Of a DNA stretch of 22,454 nt, positions 297 through 17,563 are shown one piece after another; position 1 is the stretch's first letter, and every line of letters starts with the position of its first letter. Made by a program: the position numbers and the translations under genes. Below the pieces are notes generated by a model. That model had not been told where the DNA came from and ran no database searches. It saw only the letters and a list, made by a program, of their open reading frames with translations. Origin of the DNA: a virus. The stretch covers positions 5,577 through 28,030 of IMG/VR virus record IMGVR_UViG_3300000235_000018; one strand, 5' to 3'.

Positions 297-304
297 TATA
301 AATA
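297..304 (+). promoter_or_regulatory. T4-type late promoter (TATAAATA)
   Basis: An exact match to the T4 late promoter -10 octamer lies in the 99-base gap between the 36-272 gene and the next start at 372. A second near-match, TATAAATT, lies at 316-323. Transcription from either would read into the 372 gene and the ART-like cluster. The octamer is AT-rich and can occur by chance, but its intergenic position and orientation are right. Confidence 0.55.
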
Positions 305-371: not shown

Positions 372-731
372 ATGAATTTTGAACGAATGTCTAAAATTTT
401 GACCGATGACAGACCATTATATGAACCACCTTCCATAAACAATCTACTTAATGAGAATGTTGATATCGTTAAGGATGATGAAGATGCTTTATATAATGGT
501 ATTTTAATGGGAAAAAATGTAGTATTAAATTCATATATTGATATATATGATGTAAATGACAGGGTAGTATATATCACTAAAAAAAGAAAAAACATAACAG
601 AAGTCAAGTTTTTTTCTGAAATGAGGGAAATGGTTGATATTATTATAGAAATGTGTGATAATATGTCCTGGCAGTTTGAAGAAGATGAAACAGAAGAGAA
701 CATTATTTTTAAAATAAAGGTAAGTATATGA
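372..731 (+). CDS. Hypothetical acidic protein ahead of the ART-like cluster
   Basis: A 119-residue acidic protein of unknown function. I chose the ATG at 372 because GAAGGA lies 6 bases upstream. An earlier in-frame ATG at 330 has no ribosome binding site, and its codons form the leader hairpin. The N-terminal half has a disordered-looking DDRPLYEPP segment, and the C-terminal half alternates strands and an acidic helix. No catalytic motif is visible, and it lacks the MKLxxFLNE start of the following five genes. Its stop overlaps the next start (ATGA at 728-731), so it is probably co-transcribed and translationally coupled with the first ART-like gene. Confidence 0.6.
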   Translation: MNFERMSKILTDDRPLYEPPSINNLLNENVDIVKDDEDALYNGILMGKNVVLNSYIDIYDVNDRVVYITKKRKNITEVKFFSEMREMVDIIIEMCDNMSWQFEEDETEENIIFKIKVSI

Positions 732-1330
732 AATTACAGACATTTTTGAATGAAGATACTGATATAGACTTTGATACTGTTCTAAAAGAATGTTCAGAGA
801 TCGTTGATATATATAAACAAATCAAGAGTTTCTTGTATCGTGGGTCAAAGCATAACTTTGCACAGGATATAACTAAAATAACCCCAAGAACAGACAGAAG
901 GCCATTAGACTCAAGTGTTGAAGTATCCAGAAAACTTGATGATGAGTTTTATAAGAGATTCAAATGGAGGCCAAGATCAGAAGGTGTTTTCTGTACAAGC
1001 ACTCTTTCAAATGCACATACTTACGGTGATTCATATATATTTTTTCCTAAAAATGGTTTTAAATTCGTTTGGTCAAGAAAATTCGAGGATTTTTACTCAA
1101 ATATCTATGATGCCTACTATAGTGAGTATTATACTACAGTTGATATAAATAAGTTTTTTACATTAGAAGATAAGTATATGGATTTTGAAAAGATTGTCTC
1201 TGAATATACCAATAGGGATATAAAAGATGCCATAGAAATAGGACATGAAATGATGTTTAAATGTGATTACTACTACATGGCAGATTACACGGAGACAAAT
1301 TATTTGAAGTTATTGAATTCGTTGGATTAG
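728..1330 (+). CDS. ART-like putative capsid-packaged protein, paralogue A1
   Basis: A 200-residue protein, first of five paralogues. Residues 1-9 (MKLQTFLNE) form a short amphipathic start ending in LxE, which matches the T4 gp21 prohead-protease cleavage preference and resembles the capsid-targeting sequence of T4 internal proteins and Alt. The body fits an ADP-ribosyltransferase pattern: Arg38 in LYRG, a VFCTS strand at 87-91 (S-T-S equivalent), and Glu174 in GHEMMFK near the C-terminus (ARTT-loop equivalent). The residue two before Glu174 is Gly, not the usual Glu or Gln, so activity and target are uncertain. The ribosome binding site is AAAGGTAAG. Inferred role: an NAD-dependent modifier injected with the DNA. 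It could also be an inactive fold or a related NAD-binding family. Confidence 0.6.
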   Translation: MKLQTFLNEDTDIDFDTVLKECSEIVDIYKQIKSFLYRGSKHNFAQDITKITPRTDRRPLDSSVEVSRKLDDEFYKRFKWRPRSEGVFCTSTLSNAHTYGDSYIFFPKNGFKFVWSRKFEDFYSNIYDAYYSEYYTTVDINKFFTLEDKYMDFEKIVSEYTNRDIKDAIEIGHEMMFKCDYYYMADYTETNYLKLLNSLD

Positions 1331-1339
1331 GGGAAGTAT

Positions 1340-1969
1340 ATGAAATTACAGACATTTTTGAATGAAGATACTGATATAGACTTTAATACTGTTCTAAAAG
1401 AATGTTCGGAAATCATTGATATTTATAATGATGTCGGAAAGGTTTTGTATCGTGGATCAAAGAGCCATTCAGCAAGTTCAATCATAAAGGTATATCCGAG
1501 AAATGATAGGAGACCATTAGATATGCCTATATACATATCTAATGCCCTTGATGATGAATTTTATCAAATGTTTGATTGGAAGCCAAGATCAGAAGGTGTT
1601 TTCTGTACGTCAGATTATAATGTTGCCTCATCCTATTCTAACAATTATGATAGAATGGCTTATGTTTTCTTCCCAAAGAATGGTTTTAAGTTTTTATGGT
1701 CTACTGACTTTGAGGACTTGTTTTCAGATGTTTTCGATTGTAATAATGACGATTATAAGACATTCGATGATGATAATGATGATGAAGATGAAGAAGATTA
1801 TGATTATAGAGGATGGGAATGGGATTATGAAAAGATAGTGTCCACCTATACAGATAAGAACATAGGGAACGCAATAAGATCTAGGAACGAGATGGCTTTT
1901 AAGTGCGACTGGTATTATCTGGTAAACAAAGATGATGCAACTATGTTGTCTTTTTTCGAGAATTCTTGA
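1340..1969 (+). CDS. ART-like putative capsid-packaged protein, paralogue A2
   Basis: A 209-residue paralogue of the preceding gene. Residues 1-15 are almost identical (MKLQTFLNEDTDIDF), and the LYRG (Arg38), GVFCTS (86-91) and NEMAFKCD (Glu184) motifs align. It differs by an insertion at about 138-157 made almost entirely of Asp and Glu, which lies before the conserved WEWDYEKIVSTYTDKNIGNA block. The ribosome binding site GGGGAAG is 4 bases before the ATG, and the gap to the previous stop is 9 bases, so they are one operon. The near-identical starts and diverged middles suggest recent tandem duplication followed by divergence, perhaps towards different host targets. Confidence 0.6.
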   Translation: MKLQTFLNEDTDIDFNTVLKECSEIIDIYNDVGKVLYRGSKSHSASSIIKVYPRNDRRPLDMPIYISNALDDEFYQMFDWKPRSEGVFCTSDYNVASSYSNNYDRMAYVFFPKNGFKFLWSTDFEDLFSDVFDCNNDDYKTFDDDNDDEDEEDYDYRGWEWDYEKIVSTYTDKNIGNAIRSRNEMAFKCDWYYLVNKDDATMLSFFENS

Positions 1970-1988
1970 AGATTACGGTGAACACTGC

Positions 1989-2612
1989 ATGAGATTAAAC
2001 AAATTTCTTAATGAAAACAATAATATAGATTTCAACGATATCATAAAAGATTGTTCTGATATCATTGACATATATAGGGAAACAAATAATGTTTTATTTC
2101 GTGGCATAAAATATTGTAAGGATAACCAAGTAATTTCATTGATATATCCCAGAAATGACAGAAGGCCTGTAGACACACCGGAAGAAATTTCAGACGATTT
2201 GGATGATGAGTTTTATAAGAGATTCAAATGGAAACCGAGGAGAGAAGGTGTTTTCTGTACATCAGATAGTTCCACAGCAAAGAGTTTTGATGGGAATAGA
2301 GAATTACGCATAGTTTTCCCAAAGAATGGTTTTAAGTTTTTATGGTCTGATACCTTTGATGACTTGTTTTCAGATGTTTTTGAAAAACATAACATAAGTT
2401 ATGCAAAAATAAAAGGGGATAACTATGATTATTATAATGAGTGGGAATGGGATTATGAAAAGATAGTGTCCACCTATTCAGATAAGAACATAGGGAACGC
2501 AGTGAAATCGGGGAATGAGGTAATGATCAAATGTAATTACTATTATTTGGTTATATTGAGTGAAGCTACTGATTTTATTAATAATTTAGAGATCACGGTG
2601 AATACTACATGA
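1989..2612 (+). CDS. ART-like putative capsid-packaged protein, paralogue A3
   Basis: A 207-residue paralogue. The frame is open back to 1932, but the ATG at 1989 restores the family start MRLNKFLNEN and has the ACGGTGA ribosome binding site shared by the next two genes; the upstream 19 codons lie mostly inside the previous gene. Motifs are Arg38 in LFRG, GVFCTS (87-92) and Glu177 in GNEVMIK, the most ART-like version of the C-terminal motif in subfamily A. The WEWDYEKIVSTYSDKNIGNA block is nearly the same as in paralogue A2. The stop overlaps the next ATG (ATGA at 2609), implying coupled translation. Confidence 0.6.
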   Translation: MRLNKFLNENNNIDFNDIIKDCSDIIDIYRETNNVLFRGIKYCKDNQVISLIYPRNDRRPVDTPEEISDDLDDEFYKRFKWKPRREGVFCTSDSSTAKSFDGNRELRIVFPKNGFKFLWSDTFDDLFSDVFEKHNISYAKIKGDNYDYYNEWEWDYEKIVSTYSDKNIGNAVKSGNEVMIKCNYYYLVILSEATDFINNLEITVNTT

Positions 2613-3355
2613 GATTACAGAATTTTTTGAATGAGGGTAGAGGTAAGGAACTATCGAAAGAAGAGGCTCTTGACTTTGTTTTAACAAAGTGCACAGATTC
2701 TGCTGTGACTACGGCAGATCATTTATATAGGGGATATGAAGGCCCAGAATATGTTTTGGTTGATCCAACAAAGTTTTCCGAAAGAGAAAGCCCTAATGCA
2801 ATAAACAACTATTACAATTTATTGTTAAGCAATCTACCGAGTTGGTCTAAATACCCGAAACGTAACAAATCCATTGTGGCGTCAACAAATTCTAAATATG
2901 CGAGTCATTACGGTGATTTGTACTTTGTCCTTCCTGTTGACAACACAAAAATGGGTCTATGCCCGGAAAATGATTTGTGGATGTCATTCGGCAAATCTGG
3001 TGTGCCCATCCTCGATGATTTAAACAGAATATTGACGAATGTGGTGGGTGACAGGATAGATAATTGGCGTGAATTAAAAGAGGCCCTCATGCAAGCATAC
3101 TTTGATGAAACCGAGGATTTTAATTATGTCCAAGATTTATTCGAGCAACATGGCTGCGATGTTCAGATACAGCCAGGTAAAGAGATTAACAATTGGCTTG
3201 ATTTGGTCGAAAACATACTTGAACCAGACAGGAATGGCTTTGATTTAATTAATATAAGAAAATCTTATCCTTTAAATAGGGAGGTTTGGTTTGACCGCCC
3301 TTGCATATTAGTTCGTGAGGATGAATATGATGAATTTTCTAAAGATTTTAGGTGA
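2609..3355 (+). CDS. ART-like putative capsid-packaged protein, subfamily B, copy 1
   Basis: A 248-residue protein of a second subfamily with the same start (MRLQNFLNEG). Conserved marks are Arg41 in LYRG, the NNYYNLLLSNLPSW helix (67-79), a YPKRNKSIVAST segment with Ser-Thr at 92-93 (S-T-S equivalent), GLCPENDLW (116-124), and Glu225 in NREVWFD near the C-terminus. I recognise this YYxLLxxNxPxWxxYPKR...ST family from many T4-like phage genomes, where it is usually left hypothetical. R-ST-E order and C-terminal placement fit the ART fold, although the residue two before the Glu is Asn. The LxE start again suggests head packaging and prohead-protease trimming. Confidence 0.6.
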   Translation: MRLQNFLNEGRGKELSKEEALDFVLTKCTDSAVTTADHLYRGYEGPEYVLVDPTKFSERESPNAINNYYNLLLSNLPSWSKYPKRNKSIVASTNSKYASHYGDLYFVLPVDNTKMGLCPENDLWMSFGKSGVPILDDLNRILTNVVGDRIDNWRELKEALMQAYFDETEDFNYVQDLFEQHGCDVQIQPGKEINNWLDLVENILEPDRNGFDLINIRKSYPLNREVWFDRPCILVREDEYDEFSKDFR

Positions 3356-3390
3356 AATATGACGATTTCAAAATAATTTTTAAAAAATAC

Positions 3391-3398
3391 TATAAATA
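3391..3398 (+). promoter_or_regulatory. T4-type late promoter (TATAAATA)
   Basis: An exact TATAAATA octamer lies 46 bases before the ATG at 3444, in the only sizeable gap (88 bases) inside the ART-like cluster. It would give the last ART-like gene its own late transcription, as expected for a virion component. Confidence 0.6.
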
Positions 3399-3443
3399 GA
3401 TTATAGAAGAGATCAATTATTTGAGGATTACGGTGAATACTAT

Positions 3444-4193
3444 ATGAGATTACGAAATTTTTTGAATGAAGATAGAGGCACGGGAATATCAAAAGAAGAG
3501 GCTTTTGACTTTATTAAAACAAAGTGCATAGATTCTGCTGTGAATTCGGTGAATCATTTATATAGGGGATACGAGCGGGGCCCAGAATATGTTTTAATTA
3601 ATCCAACAACGTTTTCTGAAAGGGAAAGCCCTGGTGTAGTAAACAAATATTATAATTTATTGTTAAACAATTTACCGAGTTGGTCTAAATACCCAAAACG
3701 TAACAAATCCATTGTGGCATCAACGAGTCATAGTTATGCAAATACCAATAGTGATTTGTACTTTGTTTTCCCGGTGGCTGGTGCAAAAATGGGTATGTGT
3801 CCAGAGAATGATTTGTGGTGGTCATTCGGCAAATCTGGTATACTCGCCATCGATAGTTTAAACAAAATATTGGCAAATGTAGTGGGTGACAGGATAAATA
3901 ACTGGCATGAATTAAAAGAGGCCCTCATGCAAGCAAAGTTTGATGTAATCAAGGATCTTGATTATGCCCAAAATTTATTTGGAAAATATGCATGTGAATT
4001 GGTAATACAGCCAGATAAGGAGACTAATACCTGGTTTGATTTGGTCGAAAACATACTTGAACCTGACAGGAATGACTTTAATTTAATTAATGTACGCAAA
4101 TCTTATCCTTTAAATAGAGAGGTTTGGTTTGATAGTCTTTGTGTAATGATTCGTGGAGATAAATTTAACAAATTTTCTAAAGATTTTAGGTAA
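3444..4193 (+). CDS. ART-like putative capsid-packaged protein, subfamily B, copy 2
   Basis: A 249-residue close relative of the preceding gene, sharing the start (MRLRNFLNED), LYRG (Arg41), the YPKRNKSIVAST strand, CPENDLWWSFGKSG, the ILEPDRNxFxLIN block, and Glu226 in NREVWFD. The upstream 18 bases (ATTACGGTGAATACTAT) nearly repeat those before the two previous genes, so the duplicated unit included the ribosome binding site. Changes cluster in the middle third (for example SHSYANTNSD against NSKYASHYGD). Its 3' end overlaps the converging uvsW gene by 8 bases. It has its own late promoter at 3391. Predicted NAD-dependent transferase activity is inferred only. Confidence 0.6.
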   Translation: MRLRNFLNEDRGTGISKEEAFDFIKTKCIDSAVNSVNHLYRGYERGPEYVLINPTTFSERESPGVVNKYYNLLLNNLPSWSKYPKRNKSIVASTSHSYANTNSDLYFVFPVAGAKMGMCPENDLWWSFGKSGILAIDSLNKILANVVGDRINNWHELKEALMQAKFDVIKDLDYAQNLFGKYACELVIQPDKETNTWFDLVENILEPDRNDFNLINVRKSYPLNREVWFDSLCVMIRGDKFNKFSKDFR

Positions 4194-9792: not shown

Positions 9793-10050
9793 ATGCTCGT
9801 ACAGATTCTAACATCCGACAAAAGCAAGGGTTTATGGTACTATGGAAAGAACTTTCAGGTTTTTGATGTAGAAGAGAGAGAAGATGACAATAAGATGTTT
9901 TATTTAACTAAAGATCAATTGAGAAGAATGAAGAAAGCAACTCATCTTGATATAGGTATTTTGAAAGAAGATACTGATAAGGTGGGAAGCAGGGATGGTT
10001 CTGATTGCATTTACAATATTGAAAATTTCTTAAAATTGATTGGAGATTAA
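9793..10050 (+). CDS. Hypothetical protein
   Basis: An 85-residue protein of unknown function. The ATG at 9793 is preferred because AAAAGGA lies 7 bases upstream; an in-frame ATG at 9751 lies within the MazG-like gene. The sequence looks like a small beta-rich fold (LVQILTSDKSKGLWYYGKNF, then FDVEEREDDNKMFYL) with a basic helix. The stop overlaps the NADAR start (TAATG), so translation is probably coupled. Confidence 0.6.
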   Translation: MLVQILTSDKSKGLWYYGKNFQVFDVEEREDDNKMFYLTKDQLRRMKKATHLDIGILKEDTDKVGSRDGSDCIYNIENFLKLIGD

Positions 10051-10475
10051 TGATGATACGAGGATTCTTCGGTGAAAATAGATTCATGTCCAATTTTTAT
10101 GTCTGTGAAGATGGGTATTGTGTGGAAACTGAATATCAGGCTGCTAAATTTGAAAACGATGAAATTAAAGGAAAGATTTCGAGAATGACGCCAGGTAAGG
10201 CAAAGATGTTTGCTAAAAGAAATCCTGATCTGGTAAGGAAAAATTGGAAATCTGTAAATGTTCTTGTAATGAATAATCTTATCAGAGAGAAATTCAAGAA
10301 TGACCCCGAACGGTCAATGTTAGAAAATACAGGGAACCATATACTTGTTGAAGATAATAACTGGCATGATAATTTTTGGGGTCATTGCCATTGTTCAAAA
10401 TGTAGAAAAGAACCAAAACACAATGTTTTAGGTAAAATCTTAATGAAGATAAGGCAGGAAAACAGAGGTGATTAA
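10050..10475 (+). CDS. NADAR (YbiA-like) family protein
   Basis: A 141-residue NADAR-domain protein. Family marks are FFGENRFMSNF (6-16), the VETEYQAAKF helix (25-34), NWKSVNVLVMNNLIREKF (65-82), ML.NTGN..LVE (90-101), WHDNFWG (105-111) and NVLGKILMKIR (125-135). NADAR proteins act on N-glycosidic bonds; some act in riboflavin metabolism, and others remove ADP-ribose from guanine, reversing DarT-type toxins. A Cys/His-rich insertion (HCHCSKC, 112-118) comes before the last motif. In this genome, which also encodes ART-like proteins, ADP-ribose removal or counter-defence is an attractive guess. Two adjacent ATGs exist (10050, 10053). Confidence 0.88.
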   Translation: MMIRGFFGENRFMSNFYVCEDGYCVETEYQAAKFENDEIKGKISRMTPGKAKMFAKRNPDLVRKNWKSVNVLVMNNLIREKFKNDPERSMLENTGNHILVEDNNWHDNFWGHCHCSKCRKEPKHNVLGKILMKIRQENRGD

Positions 10476-11353: not shown

Positions 11354-13102
11354 ATGTTTAATGATGTCTGGTATAATACCAGAACTAATAAGATTCATTT
11401 GTTTGAGATAATAGGGAACGACAGACTTTATTCAGAAATAGACTGGGTTCCATATTTATTTGAAAAAACAAGTGATCCATCTGATATAAAGACAATAGAA
11501 GGGGATTTTGCAAAAAAGGTAACATTTGCAACATATTCCGATTATTATGAACATCAAAAATTTAATCATAACTATCTTGAAAATGCTGTAAGACCGGAGA
11601 TTCAATTTTTAGCAGAAAGATACCATAAGATAACAGATGAGGAAATGAAAACAGGCAAGTTAAAGATAGGTTTTATTGATATTGAGGTACATATTACAGG
11701 TAAAGACTTTCCTAAACCATCGGAGGCAAAGGAACCTGTTGTGCTTATTTCTGTCTATGATTCAAAAACAAATACGACAAAGAGTTTTGGTACAAAACCG
11801 TATGATGGAAAATACAAGGATGAACCTTGGTATGTATATGTATTCTGTAAAGATGAAGAGATGTTGTTGAGACAGTTCTTCCTTTATATGCATAAGGAGA
11901 GATTTGATGTAATTTCTGGCTATAACGTAGTAAATTTTGACTTACAATATTTAATCAATAGAGTAGAGAGAATTACCGGTGATGACTCTATGTATAAGTA
12001 CTTGTCACCAATAAAACAATTAAAAATGTGGTCTAAAAAGGATTCAGATGATGTAAATGTAGATATTGCAGGTGTGAATGTACTTGATTTTATGGAACTA
12101 TATAAATGGTATAGTCCTACAAAAAGAGAACGGTATACCCTTGATTTTATTGCTAAATCAGAATTAAGCAAGGGCAAAGTAGACTATTCAGTCTATAATG
12201 ATTTGAGACAACTTTATAACGATAACTGGAATTTATATGTAGAATATAATGTAATTGATGCATATCGTGTTGGTCAGTTAGAAGAAAAGTTGGGGTATAT
12301 AAAACTGGTACAGTCATTATCCCTACTAGCCAAAGTACCTATGAAATACTATAAAACACAAACTACTTTGATCGAGGGTGTTGTTTTGACTTATTTGAGG
12401 AGAAACAATATGTGCGCACCCACTTTTTATGGTGGCGTTCAGGAAACATTCCCGGCTGCTTGGGTTAAAGAGCCACAAAAAGGCTTTCATAAATGGGTTA
12501 TTGATTTAGATATAACAAGTTCATATCCGAGTGCAATTATTGCGTTAAATATGTCCGTTGAAACATTTTATGGAAGAATACAGGGAATTTCAGAAGATCA
12601 GATGGTTATTTATACGAAAGATAGAAAATATCCTGAATTTAACATGATGAAAGACTCTGGTTTAATTAAGTTTGAAGGAAAAAATTTATTGTTGTTTAAT
12701 AAGGCTTTAGAAAAAGGTTTATTTGCAATAGCTCCGTGTGGTTCAGTATTTTCAACGAAACAAAATGGTCTTATTTCATCTATTGAGAGGCAAGTTTTTG
12801 ACAAACGTGTTTCAGTAAAAAGAAAAATGAATGATTTAAAAAAGACTCTTGTAACCTTATCGGGTGATGAACTTGCCTTGACAAAGGAAAATGTTGCCAG
12901 ATATAACAGTCTACAGAACGTCCTTAAATTGATCTTAAATAGTATGTATGGTGCAACAGCAACACCTTATTCAAGGTATTTTAACGTAAACATAAGTGAG
13001 GCAATAGTTAGTGTAGGCCGTCATACCATAAAGACAGCAAATAACATTGTAAACACACTACTTAATAATCCTACCAAGGAAATGCTTGATTTGTTTAGGT
13101 AA
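11354..13102 (+). CDS. Family B DNA polymerase, N-terminal part (exonuclease and motifs A, B)
   Basis: A 582-residue N-terminal part of a T4 gp43-type replicative polymerase. The 3'-5' exonuclease has Exo I FIDIEV (D109, E111), Exo II NVVNFDLQYL (D196) and Exo III YNVIDAYRV (D302). The polymerase palm and fingers have motif A DITSSYPS (D386) and motif B KLILNSMYG (525-533). The protein then stops at TAA in 13100-13102, before motif C, the second catalytic aspartate pair, which is on the separate 13333 gene. The two parts total 873 residues, the usual size for this family, so little is lost. The two chains presumably assemble into one enzyme, as in phages with known split gp43. An AAAAGGAG ribosome binding site precedes the ATG. 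Confidence 0.93.
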   Translation: MFNDVWYNTRTNKIHLFEIIGNDRLYSEIDWVPYLFEKTSDPSDIKTIEGDFAKKVTFATYSDYYEHQKFNHNYLENAVRPEIQFLAERYHKITDEEMKTGKLKIGFIDIEVHITGKDFPKPSEAKEPVVLISVYDSKTNTTKSFGTKPYDGKYKDEPWYVYVFCKDEEMLLRQFFLYMHKERFDVISGYNVVNFDLQYLINRVERITGDDSMYKYLSPIKQLKMWSKKDSDDVNVDIAGVNVLDFMELYKWYSPTKRERYTLDFIAKSELSKGKVDYSVYNDLRQLYNDNWNLYVEYNVIDAYRVGQLEEKLGYIKLVQSLSLLAKVPMKYYKTQTTLIEGVVLTYLRRNNMCAPTFYGGVQETFPAAWVKEPQKGFHKWVIDLDITSSYPSAIIALNMSVETFYGRIQGISEDQMVIYTKDRKYPEFNMMKDSGLIKFEGKNLLLFNKALEKGLFAIAPCGSVFSTKQNGLISSIERQVFDKRVSVKRKMNDLKKTLVTLSGDELALTKENVARYNSLQNVLKLILNSMYGATATPYSRYFNVNISEAIVSVGRHTIKTANNIVNTLLNNPTKEMLDLFR

Positions 13103-13314
13103 ATATCTATTTACCTGAAATCAATAAAGCAATAGAGTATAATGGTATTTACTGGCACTCAAGTACTTATAGTAAATACAAAGATGAACAAAAAGTAATT
13201 CAATGCCAGCAGAAAGGCATAGGTTTACTGGTTATTCTGGAAGAAGAATGGGCACAAGACAAAGAGCTGTGTTTAAAAAGGATTAATGACTTTATTGTTG
13301 ACAAATTTGTTTAA
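13099..13314 (+). pseudogene. C-terminal remnant of a VSR-like homing endonuclease
   Basis: Between the two polymerase parts, the frame from 13099 encodes 71 residues with no start codon. It reads VNIYLPEINKAIEYNGIYWH, then KGIGLLVILEEEW and a basic helix, ending at TAA (13312). This matches the C-terminal half of the VSR-like (EDxHD) homing endonucleases, which carry a (E/D)IYIPxxxIAIEYNGxYWHS core and a GIxLIxIFEDEW strand. The N-terminal DNA-binding part is gone, and the Asp expected just before IYxP is Asn, so it should be inactive. The frame is -1 relative to the upstream polymerase part and in phase with the downstream one. It explains how gene 43 was split. Confidence 0.75.
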
Positions 13315-13326
13315 AAGGAGTATAGT
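13298..13326 (+). promoter_or_regulatory. Sigma70-type promoter for the second polymerase part
   Basis: TTGACA (13298-13303), a 17-base spacer and TATAGT (13321-13326) lie inside the end of the endonuclease remnant. The expected transcript start, about 7 bases after the -10 box, falls at or next to the ATG at 13333, so the mRNA could be nearly leaderless. The spacer contains AAGGAG, 12 bases before the ATG, which could serve only on read-through transcripts. The palindrome ACAAATTTGT (13301-13310) overlaps the -35 box. Confidence 0.6.
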
Positions 13327-13332
13327 GTTTAT

Positions 13333-14208
13333 ATGGAAAACATAGAAAACATAGATTATGTCTTGTACGGTGACACAGATTCATTATATATAAACCTCGG
13401 CAGGTTTATGGAAAAACACCTGTCCAAGGATACAGTACTGGAGGAACAGGGTATACTTGATTTTATTCATAAACTGTCAAAGGTTATTGAGCTTCATGTA
13501 AACAATGAAGCCTTTAATAGGATACAGAAACAAGAATACAACTCACAGGTTAATGACTTTAAAATAAAATTTAAACAAGAAGTTATTGCAAAGACTATCT
13601 TGTTTGTAAAGAAAAAGAAATACTCTTCATGGATTATTGATGAAGAAGGTGCGGTTGTTGACACTATAAAGACAACAGGCCTTGAGATTGTTAGGTCTGA
13701 CACGCCTGAGATGGTAAGGCCCATGCTCAAAAATATAATGTCATTAATCCTTAAAGAACATACGGATAAAGAAATATCTGATTATATATCTGTATGTGAA
13801 AAGGTATTAAAATCAGCAAAGCCTGAAGAAATATCAACTAATATAGGTGTCCATGAACTATCTAAATATATTAGTGTGGATAATTCTTATAAAAAAGGGA
13901 CGCCCTTTCATATAAAGGCCGTTGCAAATTATAGAACTATATTGAAAATGTTTAAGTTATCTGGTAAATATGAGGATGTAGTAGATAGTTCAAAAGTCAA
14001 GATTATATATGTAAAACCTAATAAATTTGGCTTTGAAAATATGGCCTTTTTAAGATGGCCAAATGAAATTGACAATATGATCCAAATAGATTATAATAAA
14101 CAGATAGAAAAGGTTTTTCTAAATAAAGTTGAGATTCTACTTGATCCTATGAATAAGAATGATTTATTGAGACAGGAAGATGGCAAGATTTTAAACATGT
14201 TTTTTTAA
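13333..14208 (+). CDS. Family B DNA polymerase, C-terminal part (motif C, thumb)
   Basis: A 291-residue second part of the gp43-type polymerase. It begins shortly before motif C, YGDTDSLY (12-19), whose two Asp residues bind catalytic metal. Then come the KKKKYSSW DNA-binding motif (residues 92-99) and the thumb domain. The C-terminal end KILNMFF resembles the hydrophobic tail by which T4 gp43 binds the sliding clamp. It needs the 11354-13102 product to make a complete active site. The start MENIENIDY follows an AAGGAG at 12 bases. A tandem 9-base repeat (GAAAACATA twice) encodes ENIENI at the start, near the rearranged junction. Confidence 0.92.
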   Translation: MENIENIDYVLYGDTDSLYINLGRFMEKHLSKDTVLEEQGILDFIHKLSKVIELHVNNEAFNRIQKQEYNSQVNDFKIKFKQEVIAKTILFVKKKKYSSWIIDEEGAVVDTIKTTGLEIVRSDTPEMVRPMLKNIMSLILKEHTDKEISDYISVCEKVLKSAKPEEISTNIGVHELSKYISVDNSYKKGTPFHIKAVANYRTILKMFKLSGKYEDVVDSSKVKIIYVKPNKFGFENMAFLRWPNEIDNMIQIDYNKQIEKVFLNKVEILLDPMNKNDLLRQEDGKILNMFF

Positions 14209-14938: not shown

Positions 14939-16057
14939 ATGGAGAAACAAGAAATTAAAAAACTATTTGCCAATAATCTATTAGAAACCTCTAAATTACC
15001 TATAGAAGAACATATCCTACATGAAAAATGGATGGAATTAAACAATACTTCATATACAAGCAAGGATTTACAATCAATATATGAAGTAAAACAACAAATC
15101 TGGATTCCAACAAATGCAGATTCTTATATGGATTTAGAGCCGGAAGTGATTTTGGCAGACAGTAAAGTAAATTCCCAGATATGGACTACATTAAGAAGAT
15201 TTACCTCTACCGCCAAATGGTCACAGTCTCCTGGGAGATTTGCTAAATTTCTCATAAAAGATAAGAAAACACAGACATATCTTGGTGTAATAAGTATAGG
15301 AAGTGATTTCATTTCTATAGGTGGAAGAGATAAACACATTGGCTGGAATACGAAACATAAAATGGATAATCATAGATTAAATTATCTATGCATGGGCAGT
15401 TCTATTGTGCCTACTCAACCTTTAGGATATAATTTTACTGGGGGCAAACTTATTGCCTTATTGACAGTAAGTGATGTAGTAGAAGATTGGTGGAATAATA
15501 AATATAAGGAAAAATTAGTAGGAGTAACAACTACTTCTCTATATGGTAATAAAGGTATCAGTCAATATACTGGATTACATGCCTGGCATCAATGTGAATT
15601 TTCTAAAGGTAACGTGACATTAGAGCCATCTGAAAAAATATACGTTTTATTGAAAGAATGGGTAAAGGAGAAGTTTCCGAAGAAATATGAAGAACTTATG
15701 ACATCGAAAAAAAGTGGGCCAGTAAGTCATGTAAGACCGAGATTGTTATCCATTGCACACAAAGAGCTTGGTGTGAAAGCAGTGAATAATCAGTTTAGTA
15801 GGGGTGTTTATTTTTGTGAACTATACGATAATACTAAAGAATTTTTATGTTGTAAAACAGACATATTAGGCAACAAGAAATTCGACAATTCCGTAAAAAC
15901 ATTGTCTGATATATGGAAACAAAGATATGCCAGAAAAAGGATAAACAAATTGGTTAAGGAAAACAAGAATAATAATGATATATTATTCTATGATTCTTTA
16001 ATAGATATGACTTGGGAAGAAGCAAAAAATCAGTTTTTAGTAAATGTAGGTAGATAA
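14939..16057 (+). CDS. DUF4338 (DruA-like) family protein
   Basis: A 372-residue protein of a family widespread in T4-like phages and, to my recognition, related to DUF4338, the domain of Druantia defence protein DruA. Conserved stretches are LGVISIGSD (95-103), GGRDKHIGWN (108-117), LNYLCMGSSIVPTQPLGYN (127-145) followed by GGKLIALL, LVGVTTTSLYG (172-182), RGVYFCELYDNT and FYDSLIDM near the C-terminus. The biochemical activity is unknown. In cells DUF4338 proteins occur in anti-phage islands; in phages they may be a domesticated relative used for superinfection exclusion or DNA handling. The ribosome binding site AAAGGA is 9 bases upstream. It closes the plus-strand block and converges on the tail operon with a 4-base gap. 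Confidence 0.6.
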   Translation: MEKQEIKKLFANNLLETSKLPIEEHILHEKWMELNNTSYTSKDLQSIYEVKQQIWIPTNADSYMDLEPEVILADSKVNSQIWTTLRRFTSTAKWSQSPGRFAKFLIKDKKTQTYLGVISIGSDFISIGGRDKHIGWNTKHKMDNHRLNYLCMGSSIVPTQPLGYNFTGGKLIALLTVSDVVEDWWNNKYKEKLVGVTTTSLYGNKGISQYTGLHAWHQCEFSKGNVTLEPSEKIYVLLKEWVKEKFPKKYEELMTSKKSGPVSHVRPRLLSIAHKELGVKAVNNQFSRGVYFCELYDNTKEFLCCKTDILGNKKFDNSVKTLSDIWKQRYARKRINKLVKENKNNNDILFYDSLIDMTWEEAKNQFLVNVGR

Positions 16058-16495: not shown

Positions 16496-17563
16496 TTATG
16501 AAAGAATAAGTTGTTCAATCTGCGGTAACACGTTTTGGTAAAAATTACACATGGGGAATCTACTTGTTAATGACCCACCGGATAAAACACGATCAGCAAA
16601 ACATCCGCCTTGACAATAATTTTTAACTGAACAATCAGAACATTCGGGCTGATTTTCCCATTTACGACGTATGTCTTTTTTGACAGCAACTTTATTGATA
16701 ATATCATCATCGTAAATCGATCCGACGCCTGCGAAAGAACACGCCGAGTCTCGTGTACACGATGTAATCTTCCCGTCTGGCAAAACTGCGAACAGTCGGC
16801 GACCACACGGCCACATCGATCCATTAAAACTTGGGGTGATCGATATTTCATCAATGAACATTGAGTAGTTGTATCGAGGCTTGTATTTACGGCTTTTGCA
16901 AATAGGCAAAATTCTGTCAAAGGTAGATATCAATTCTTTTTCATATTCTGGCCGATGATCGGTAGCATTGTGATAGCTCTTGATATAAAAATTATTATCT
17001 ATAGCATAATTGACTATATCCTCTGCACGTTCCATATTAAGTTTATCCCACACGAAAGTCAGACCTTGCTTGCCAGGATTGTCTGGGGTGTGAATGTCTA
17101 TTATATGCATTCGCCGTTCGATTTCTTGCATGGTTAAATCAGTAATATGTAGTGTCCATTGGTTAATTCGCACAACATCATTCCAGTCAATTTTATCAAG
17201 CAAATCACCATTTGTATGAATGATTCCGAGCATACCGGGAGTTTTCTCAAAAACAATGTCCATGAGACGTTTAATTTTGGTCGCTTCGAGCAATGGTTCT
17301 CCACCAAGAAATACAACCATCCCAAGCAAATAGTTGTGTTGTTGATATGTGGCAGGTAGCCATTTGCATAATTGTTGAAATGTCTGTTCGTCCATTGATT
17401 TGTTTGGTGTTAATTGGTTGGATACATAACAAAAATCACATTTTCTTGTACATTTCTGCGTCAAAGATACTTCCGCCCAATATAGAGGGAAATATTTCCA
17501 TTCGCCCTTACCAACAATTCTGTTATCAGTATTTTTGAATAAATCCACCAACCATTGATCCAT
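16496..17563 (-). CDS. Radical SAM enzyme with SPASM domain (protein maturase)
   Basis: A 355-residue radical SAM enzyme with a full SPASM domain. The N-terminal CxxxCxxC (C38, C42, C45) binds the SAM cluster, and GGEP (87-90) binds SAM. The C-terminal region follows the SPASM pattern exactly: C253-x10-G264-x4-C269, then C308-x2-C311-x5-C317-x3-C321 and C339, enough ligands for auxiliary Fe-S clusters. Such enzymes modify peptides or proteins (formylglycine, thioether or carbon-carbon links). No ligand is missing, so it looks active. It abuts the ligase-like gene and follows fibre and adhesin genes in a phage late operon, so its substrate may be a virion protein. The ribosome binding site GGGAGGA is strong. 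The exact reaction cannot be read from the sequence. Confidence 0.9.
   Translation of the reverse strand: MDQWLVDLFKNTDNRIVGKGEWKYFPLYWAEVSLTQKCTRKCDFCYVSNQLTPNKSMDEQTFQQLCKWLPATYQQHNYLLGMVVFLGGEPLLEATKIKRLMDIVFEKTPGMLGIIHTNGDLLDKIDWNDVVRINQWTLHITDLTMQEIERRMHIIDIHTPDNPGKQGLTFVWDKLNMERAEDIVNYAIDNNFYIKSYHNATDHRPEYEKELISTFDRILPICKSRKYKPRYNYSMFIDEISITPSFNGSMWPCGRRLFAVLPDGKITSCTRDSACSFAGVGSIYDDDIINKVAVKKDIRRKWENQPECSDCSVKNYCQGGCFADRVLSGGSLTSRFPMCNFYQNVLPQIEQLILS

Follow-up and report, generated by a model that had tools for sequence, protein, structure and literature searches.

The question raised by this stretch of viral DNA is what a phage might do with a row of small, related genes whose products only distantly resemble ADP-ribosyltransferases (ARTs). 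The window, i.e. the whole stretch of 22,454 nucleotides that was analysed, covers positions 5577-28030 of a 28,030-base virus record (IMG/VR IMGVR_UViG_3300000235_000018) and is a fragment of a T4-related phage, carrying uvsW, a uvsY-like gene, a DnaB-type helicase and a family B DNA polymerase. An original prediction, made from the sequence alone, had proposed a tandem array of five ART-like genes in two subfamilies at 728-4193. We consider it reasonably probable that the products of this array are a battery of ART-like effectors which are packaged in the head and injected, act in the manner of Alt and use a leader of the internal-protein (IP) type for delivery. Homology, the arrays, the conserved residues, the similarity and sharing of the leader, purifying selection, ART-biased fold matches and the position of the array in the virion-protein cluster of phage Atu_ph07 are what the analysis demonstrates; packaging, cleavage, injection, chemistry with nicotinamide adenine dinucleotide (NAD) and the targets are what we infer.

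The five genes do lie consecutively on the + strand and are mutually homologous, and they fall into the two proposed subfamilies, A (genes 1-3) and B (genes 4-5; Table 1), which are homologous to each other with an hhalign probability of 99.9%. The subfamily A proteins are members of phrog_11975 and those of subfamily B of phrog_12810; both PHROGs are annotated as of unknown function, an annotation in which the fold, leader and array organisation of these direct family members are absent. A Pfam search of the five proteins matched no model. For A3, the likely start is 1989 instead of the mechanical open reading frame (ORF) start at 1932, because the leader MRLNKFLNE shared within the array is restored there. 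While the count of five stands for the window, a sixth family member about 5 kb upstream of the array, at 211-789 of the parent record (G000:C1, L010), had gone unnoticed, as had the zeta-toxin-like P-loop kinase that follows it at 935-1630 (L010).

Relatives were found by tblastn in Agrobacterium phage Atu_ph07, Salicola phage SCTP-2 and the uncultured phages LR756508 and LR756502, and, beyond Atu_ph07 and SCTP-2, more than 40 other viral contigs carry them, nearly always as tandem arrays. In IMG/VR, alignment queries returned 63 loci, duplicates included, and single-protein queries recovered no relatives; bacterial and archaeal genomes, scanned with narrow patterns only, yielded none. An iterated hidden Markov model recovers 284 homologous ORFs from 74 sequence records, overlaps between records included, and the homology within the array is far beyond chance. 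With duplicate loci removed, 168 family genes remain on 49 sequences, 39 of which carry at least two. In Atu_ph07, the domain occurs in eleven consecutive genes, coding sequences (CDS) 53-63, one of which holds two copies and another, AUZ94865, is a fusion with a zeta-toxin-like kinase. Since Atu_ph07 and the window each contain both subfamilies, and the strongly supported B clade spans many phages, the A/B split predates the phage lineages, and recent duplication alone can be dismissed on the same grounds. In the tree, 26 of 53 cherries fall within one contig, and local array expansion is therefore continuing; in the related contig L048, the array still stands beside uvsW and uvsY, with the copies in a different order. 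The window paralogues have ratios of nonsynonymous to synonymous substitution (dN/dS) of 0.18-0.38. The five array genes are thus under purifying selection, and these values, together with the lack of stop codons, rule out an array of pseudogenes. In the part of the literature that was searched, there was no account of this family, its arrays or a leader shared in jumbo phages.

A feature that the original prediction overlooked lies at the N-termini, where all five proteins start with M[KR]L-x-x-F-L-N-E. In T4 capsid targeting, the first ten residues suffice for packaging, with residues 4 and 7 directing targeting and residues 8 and 10 cleavage by gp21 (PMC9026906). This pattern, with hydrophobic residues at 4 and 7 and L/I-x-E, is found in all five array proteins, in a leader one residue shorter than that of T4 IPIII, which like IPII starts with MKTYQEFIAE; leaders of relatives such as MITFKQFLSE and MKTFKQFITE fit the T4 sequence position by position. 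The sixth paralogue, read from a possible TTG start, begins with MKLKKFLSGD and has Gly where the cleavage Glu would stand, and the kinase behind it begins with MKFNDYLNEG. In its strict form, the motif occurs in 78 of the 168 family genes, compared to a mean of 1.1 after shuffling, and in 24 of the 515 non-family genes at these loci. Most of these 24 sit near arrays, and several encode proteins of unrelated folds, namely zeta-toxin-like kinases, a C39 peptidase with a weaker match of the AvrRpt2 type too, an amidoligase, 2H-like phosphoesterases and a GNAT-like protein. The consensus is uniform inside an array and differs from phage to phage. Between A1 and A2, DNA identity is 98% over the first 20 codons but 46-73% over the remainder, and the leader therefore behaves as a portable module. 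The T4 IPs, which are injected anti-restriction proteins (PMC12373910), likewise carry a 10-residue leader with an L/I-x-E site on unrelated proteins, in a repertoire that varies between relatives. They are not ARTs, however, whereas the main cargo here would be one expanded enzyme-like family, along with kinases, a peptidase and others.

The genomic context in Atu_ph07 agrees with packaging. Our CDS count in this record matches the published gene numbers (gp123, ribonucleotide reductase; gp125, head completion; gp132, sheath), and the array therefore corresponds to CDS 53-63 in that numbering. The published description places most virion proteins in three clusters, one of which, CDS 31-76, comprises 29 proteins detected by mass spectrometry (PMC6102473). 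The array falls inside this cluster, and individual array proteins are presumably among those present in virions. Based on leader and virion-protein context together, we place the proteins with the packaged and injected T4 Alt and IPI-III, and not with the cell-made ModA and ModB. Packaging and delivery of the family proteins are, in our estimate, very probable. ModA and ModB are small phage ARTs encoded as a tandem pair and in this resemble the ART-like array proteins, but they lack such a leader and are not known to be packaged. Alt, an ART of the phage head, undergoes cleavage by the prohead protease and is injected (PMC9026906), and we propose the same role for the array at the start of infection. 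Alt differs in being a single chain of 682 aa, with canonical STS and E-x-E motifs and the N-terminus MELITELFDE, where the family forms arrays of proteins of 200-280 aa with IP-type leaders, and no profile similarity to it was found when the family profiles were compared with it by hhalign.

The residues proposed for catalysis stand where the original prediction had located them: LYRG or LFRG with Arg38 in three genes and Arg41 in two, CTS or AST around residues 89-93, and a near-C-terminal Glu (Table 1), preceded two positions earlier by G, R, G, N and N across the array, i.e. by neither Glu nor Gln. Conservation was counted over 164 family representatives unless a column held fewer. Three Arg residues are retained, the first (38/41) in 159 representatives, the next (57/59) in 158 and the last (83/85) in 162, as is one Pro in 163; one Asp is kept in 157 of 162. 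Glu is retained in 93 of the 94 rows with a residue in that column, and in at least 90% in subfamily A. The Ser/Thr motif takes the form [CA]-[TS]-[TSG] at the expected place.

AlphaFold2 models of A2 and B1, built from family alignments, are confident (Table 1). They run from a helix to the Arg strand, a further strand, helices, a strand ending in [CA][TS][TSG], a helix, two strands, a variable region, a strand beginning at Glu, and a final strand and helix; this predicted order is that of the arginine-serine-glutamate (R-S-E) type, with the first Arg on the first strand and Glu at the start of the penultimate one. For A2, every match listed by VIA-align with Z of at least 2 is an ART-superfamily chain, with 2aua on top (Z 6.2) and the others including Arr, KptA/Tpt1, TreX, the catalytic subunits of pertussis toxin (PT) and cholera toxin (CT), PltA, heat-labile toxin (LT), CopC/OspC3 and ParT; for B1, 2aua and 12 ART-superfamily chains fill the top 13 rows, with a best Z of 5.4. 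When the first strand is aligned ungapped from the reported ranges, the register of Arg38/41 matches toxin and Arr positions, which we take to be Arg7 of CT and LT, Arg9 of one PT chain and His19 of Arr; for further chains of these toxins, the start of the match is out of this register. The 2aua structure has itself been assigned a diphtheria-toxin-type ART fold (PMC3024214). Among 17 T4 sequences, ModB was the best match to both subfamily profiles in hhalign; the similarity covers a helix and LYRG, aligned with ModB Arg73-Gly74, and the remaining sequence fails to align. ModB is inactivated by R73A (PMC10468400). In BFVD, there were weak matches to ART-PolyVal proteins. Phage polyvalent proteins are embedded in the virion and injected, and ART domains are common in them (PMC9503650), but they are single giant multidomain chains, whereas here each protein has its own gene and leader. 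An identification as DRAT was rejected, as it rested on one family member with a chance-level match (E 0.13).

A number of observations weigh against injected, catalytically active ARTs. All Z values are below 8, a range in which the tool warns of common arrangements. Foldseek, which had been suggested as a check, ranked pertussis S1, PltA and KptA at the top for A2, but gave no such trend for B1 and no PDB match reaching E 0.001 for either, and sequence searches of Pfam and PDB returned no ART-family match. The Ser/Thr motif is looser than STS across the family, with T/S in 126 of 164 and then T/S in 91 of 164; two positions before the catalytic Glu, E or Q occurs in only 8 of 94, with D, N, K and G commonest; and the near-invariant polar residues R57/59, R83/85 and D126/122 lie outside the R-S-E signature. 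Finally, leaders in several lineages, e.g. MKINEI and MKIYEIEAG, have no clear L/I-x-E. Because STS is degenerate and the Glu/Gln partner is absent, strict R-S-E membership is unsupported, and for the latter reason we do not file the family among classical R-S-E protein-modifying ARTs. What survives of the original prediction are the ART-superfamily fold matches in both subfamilies and the near-invariant Arg and Glu at the first and penultimate strands: the lines of evidence for the fold are individually weak, but combined they make a predicted ART fold likely, and the ART-like reading can be kept as one of distant fold similarity between models and known structures. That these predicted ART-like proteins also catalyse ADP-ribosyl transfer is probable, with less assurance.

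If the domain is catalytic, it might not modify proteins. An NAD glycohydrolase or an ART acting on small molecules or nucleic acids (similar to Arr, KptA or DarT) is an unlikely alternative, under which the cargo would act, together with the kinases and 2H phosphoesterases that bear the leader, in the processing of RNA ends or NAD-derived signals as infection starts. The nearest folds include Arr and KptA/Tpt1, protein-modifying R-S-E enzymes typically have an [EQ]-x-E pair that is missing here, the zeta-like kinases and 2H-like proteins carry the same leader as putative co-cargo, and the window contains a NADAR gene. However, the Z values are low and tied, the catalytic sets of Arr (H-Y-D) and KptA (R-H-R-R) are unmatched, and many paralogues suggest many targets, not one small molecule. 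Slightly less likely again is that the proteins are packaged and injected without being catalysts and use their ART-like fold as a binding scaffold; the parallel would be T4 IPI-III, inhibitors of type IV restriction enzymes with no known catalysis. The leader logic is the same as that of the IPs, whose unrelated mature parts are specific inhibitors (PMC12373910), and paralogue expansion fits specific inhibitors as well, but Arg and Glu are retained in more than 95% of divergent members while the surface and C-terminal regions vary widely. That the effectors are made in the infected cell, as ModA and ModB are, and share an N-terminal peptide with some other role would agree with the missing L/I-x-E in some lineages and with the lack of enrichment of T4-late-type boxes upstream of family genes, but is very improbable given a leader that is lineage-specific, common to unrelated folds and matched to T4 IPs in several lineages, and an Atu_ph07 array that sits within a virion-protein cluster.

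For the reading that we favour, packaged and injected ART-like enzymes, the following course of events can be envisaged. The leader of 9-10 residues, resembling the T4 capsid-targeting sequence, would carry each protein into the prohead core, where a gp21-type prohead protease would remove it after L/I-x-E. At infection, the mature domains would pass into the host together with the DNA, and the divergent ART-fold domain, with its Arg on the first and its Glu on the penultimate strand, would use NAD to modify host macromolecules or defence components ahead of phage gene expression. Duplication and divergence may provide each virion with several specificities. Surveys report ARTs in more than 40% of jumbo phages, and head-packaged ARTs have been proposed as a general strategy (PMC9503650, PMC7824862). 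There is about an even chance that large T4-related phages maintain a modular arsenal of injected effectors, in which a portable leader is joined to a hyper-expanded, chemically new ART branch as well as to kinases, proteases, amidoligases and phosphoesterases, as a phage counterpart of bacterial effector repertoires that is delivered at DNA entry. The favoured reading, if true, would assign a function to two phage protein families hitherto of unknown function, demonstrate the T4 internal-protein leader at scale in giant phages and allow injected effectors to be searched for by this leader. The paralogous enzymes of each array would then be at hand as a set with which to look for the host targets of early takeover and counter-defence, and the absent [EQ]-x-E partner suggests chemistry or targets unlike those of Alt, ModA and ModB.

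Table 1. Features of the ART-like array, in window positions, and leader-bearing proteins of other loci. pLDDT, predicted local distance difference test; pTM, predicted template modelling score.
Feature	Position	Strand	Remarks
ART-like A1, 200 aa, subfamily A	728..1330	+	phrog_11975 E=6.4e-25; family profile E=1.5e-47
ART-like A2, 209 aa, subfamily A	1340..1969	+	phrog_11975 E=4.5e-21; AlphaFold pLDDT 88.6, pTM 0.84
ART-like A3, 207 aa, subfamily A	1989..2612	+	phrog_11975 E=8e-22; leader MRLNKFLNE
ART-like B1, 248 aa, subfamily B	2609..3355	+	phrog_12810 E=7.3e-37; AlphaFold pLDDT 91.3, pTM 0.88
ART-like B2, 249 aa, subfamily B	3444..4193	+	phrog_12810 E=2.2e-33; 70% identity to B1
A1 leader MKLQTFLNE, proposed capsid-targeting sequence	728..754	+	proposed cleavage after Glu9
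A2 leader MKLQTFLNE	1340..1366	+	
A3 leader MRLNKFLNE	1989..2015	+	
B1 leader MRLQNFLNE	2609..2635	+	
B2 leader MRLRNFLNE	3444..3470	+	
A1 Arg38 codon, in LYRG on first strand; putative NAD-binding Arg	839..841	+	159/164 conserved
A2 Arg38 codon	1451..1453	+	first strand 37-41 of model
A3 Arg38 codon	2100..2102	+	
B1 Arg41 codon	2729..2731	+	strand 39-43 of model
B2 Arg41 codon	3564..3566	+	
A1 Glu174 codon, proposed catalytic Glu	1247..1249	+	
A2 Glu184 codon	1889..1891	+	directly precedes strand 185-188
A3 Glu177 codon	2517..2519	+	
B1 Glu225 codon	3281..3283	+	opens strand 225-228; 93/94 conserved
B2 Glu226 codon	4119..4121	+	
TATAAATA box upstream of ORF leading into array	297..304	+	suggestive only
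TATAAATA box 45 nt upstream of B2	3391..3398	+	suggestive only
Unrelated leader-bearing proteins (C39 peptidase, amidoligase, 2H phosphoesterase-like, GNAT-like)	L055:3824-4402, L027:6666-7847, L011:3200-3736, L017:6719-7249, L062:3461-3997, L046:5417-5788		

Boxes resembling the T4 late promoter, TATAAATA, number 11 in the window, compared to 4.9 expected, but no enrichment was seen upstream of family genes across the family, and we therefore dropped them as evidence. Upstream of the array, a 133-aa ORF (330-731, +) has an apparent relative, as judged by eye, upstream of the array in L048 (L048:49-459); each has LLNE in its interior, which may be a site for the prohead protease.

Some further genes of the window deserve mention. 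The NADAR domain protein, encoded at 10050-10475 (+; PF08719, E 2.7e-18) in the same phage as the array, belongs to an ADP-ribose-processing family. A homologue of DruA, from the Druantia defence system (PF14236, E 1.5e-17), is encoded within the phage genome at 14939-16057 (+), and a radical SAM protein with a weak SPASM match lies amid structural-type genes at 16496-17563 (-). The family B DNA polymerase (11354-14208, +) is distributed over two genes, split between its motifs, and the spacer at 13103-13312 encodes a remnant, AIEYNGIYWH..., which is reminiscent of EDxHD homing endonucleases.

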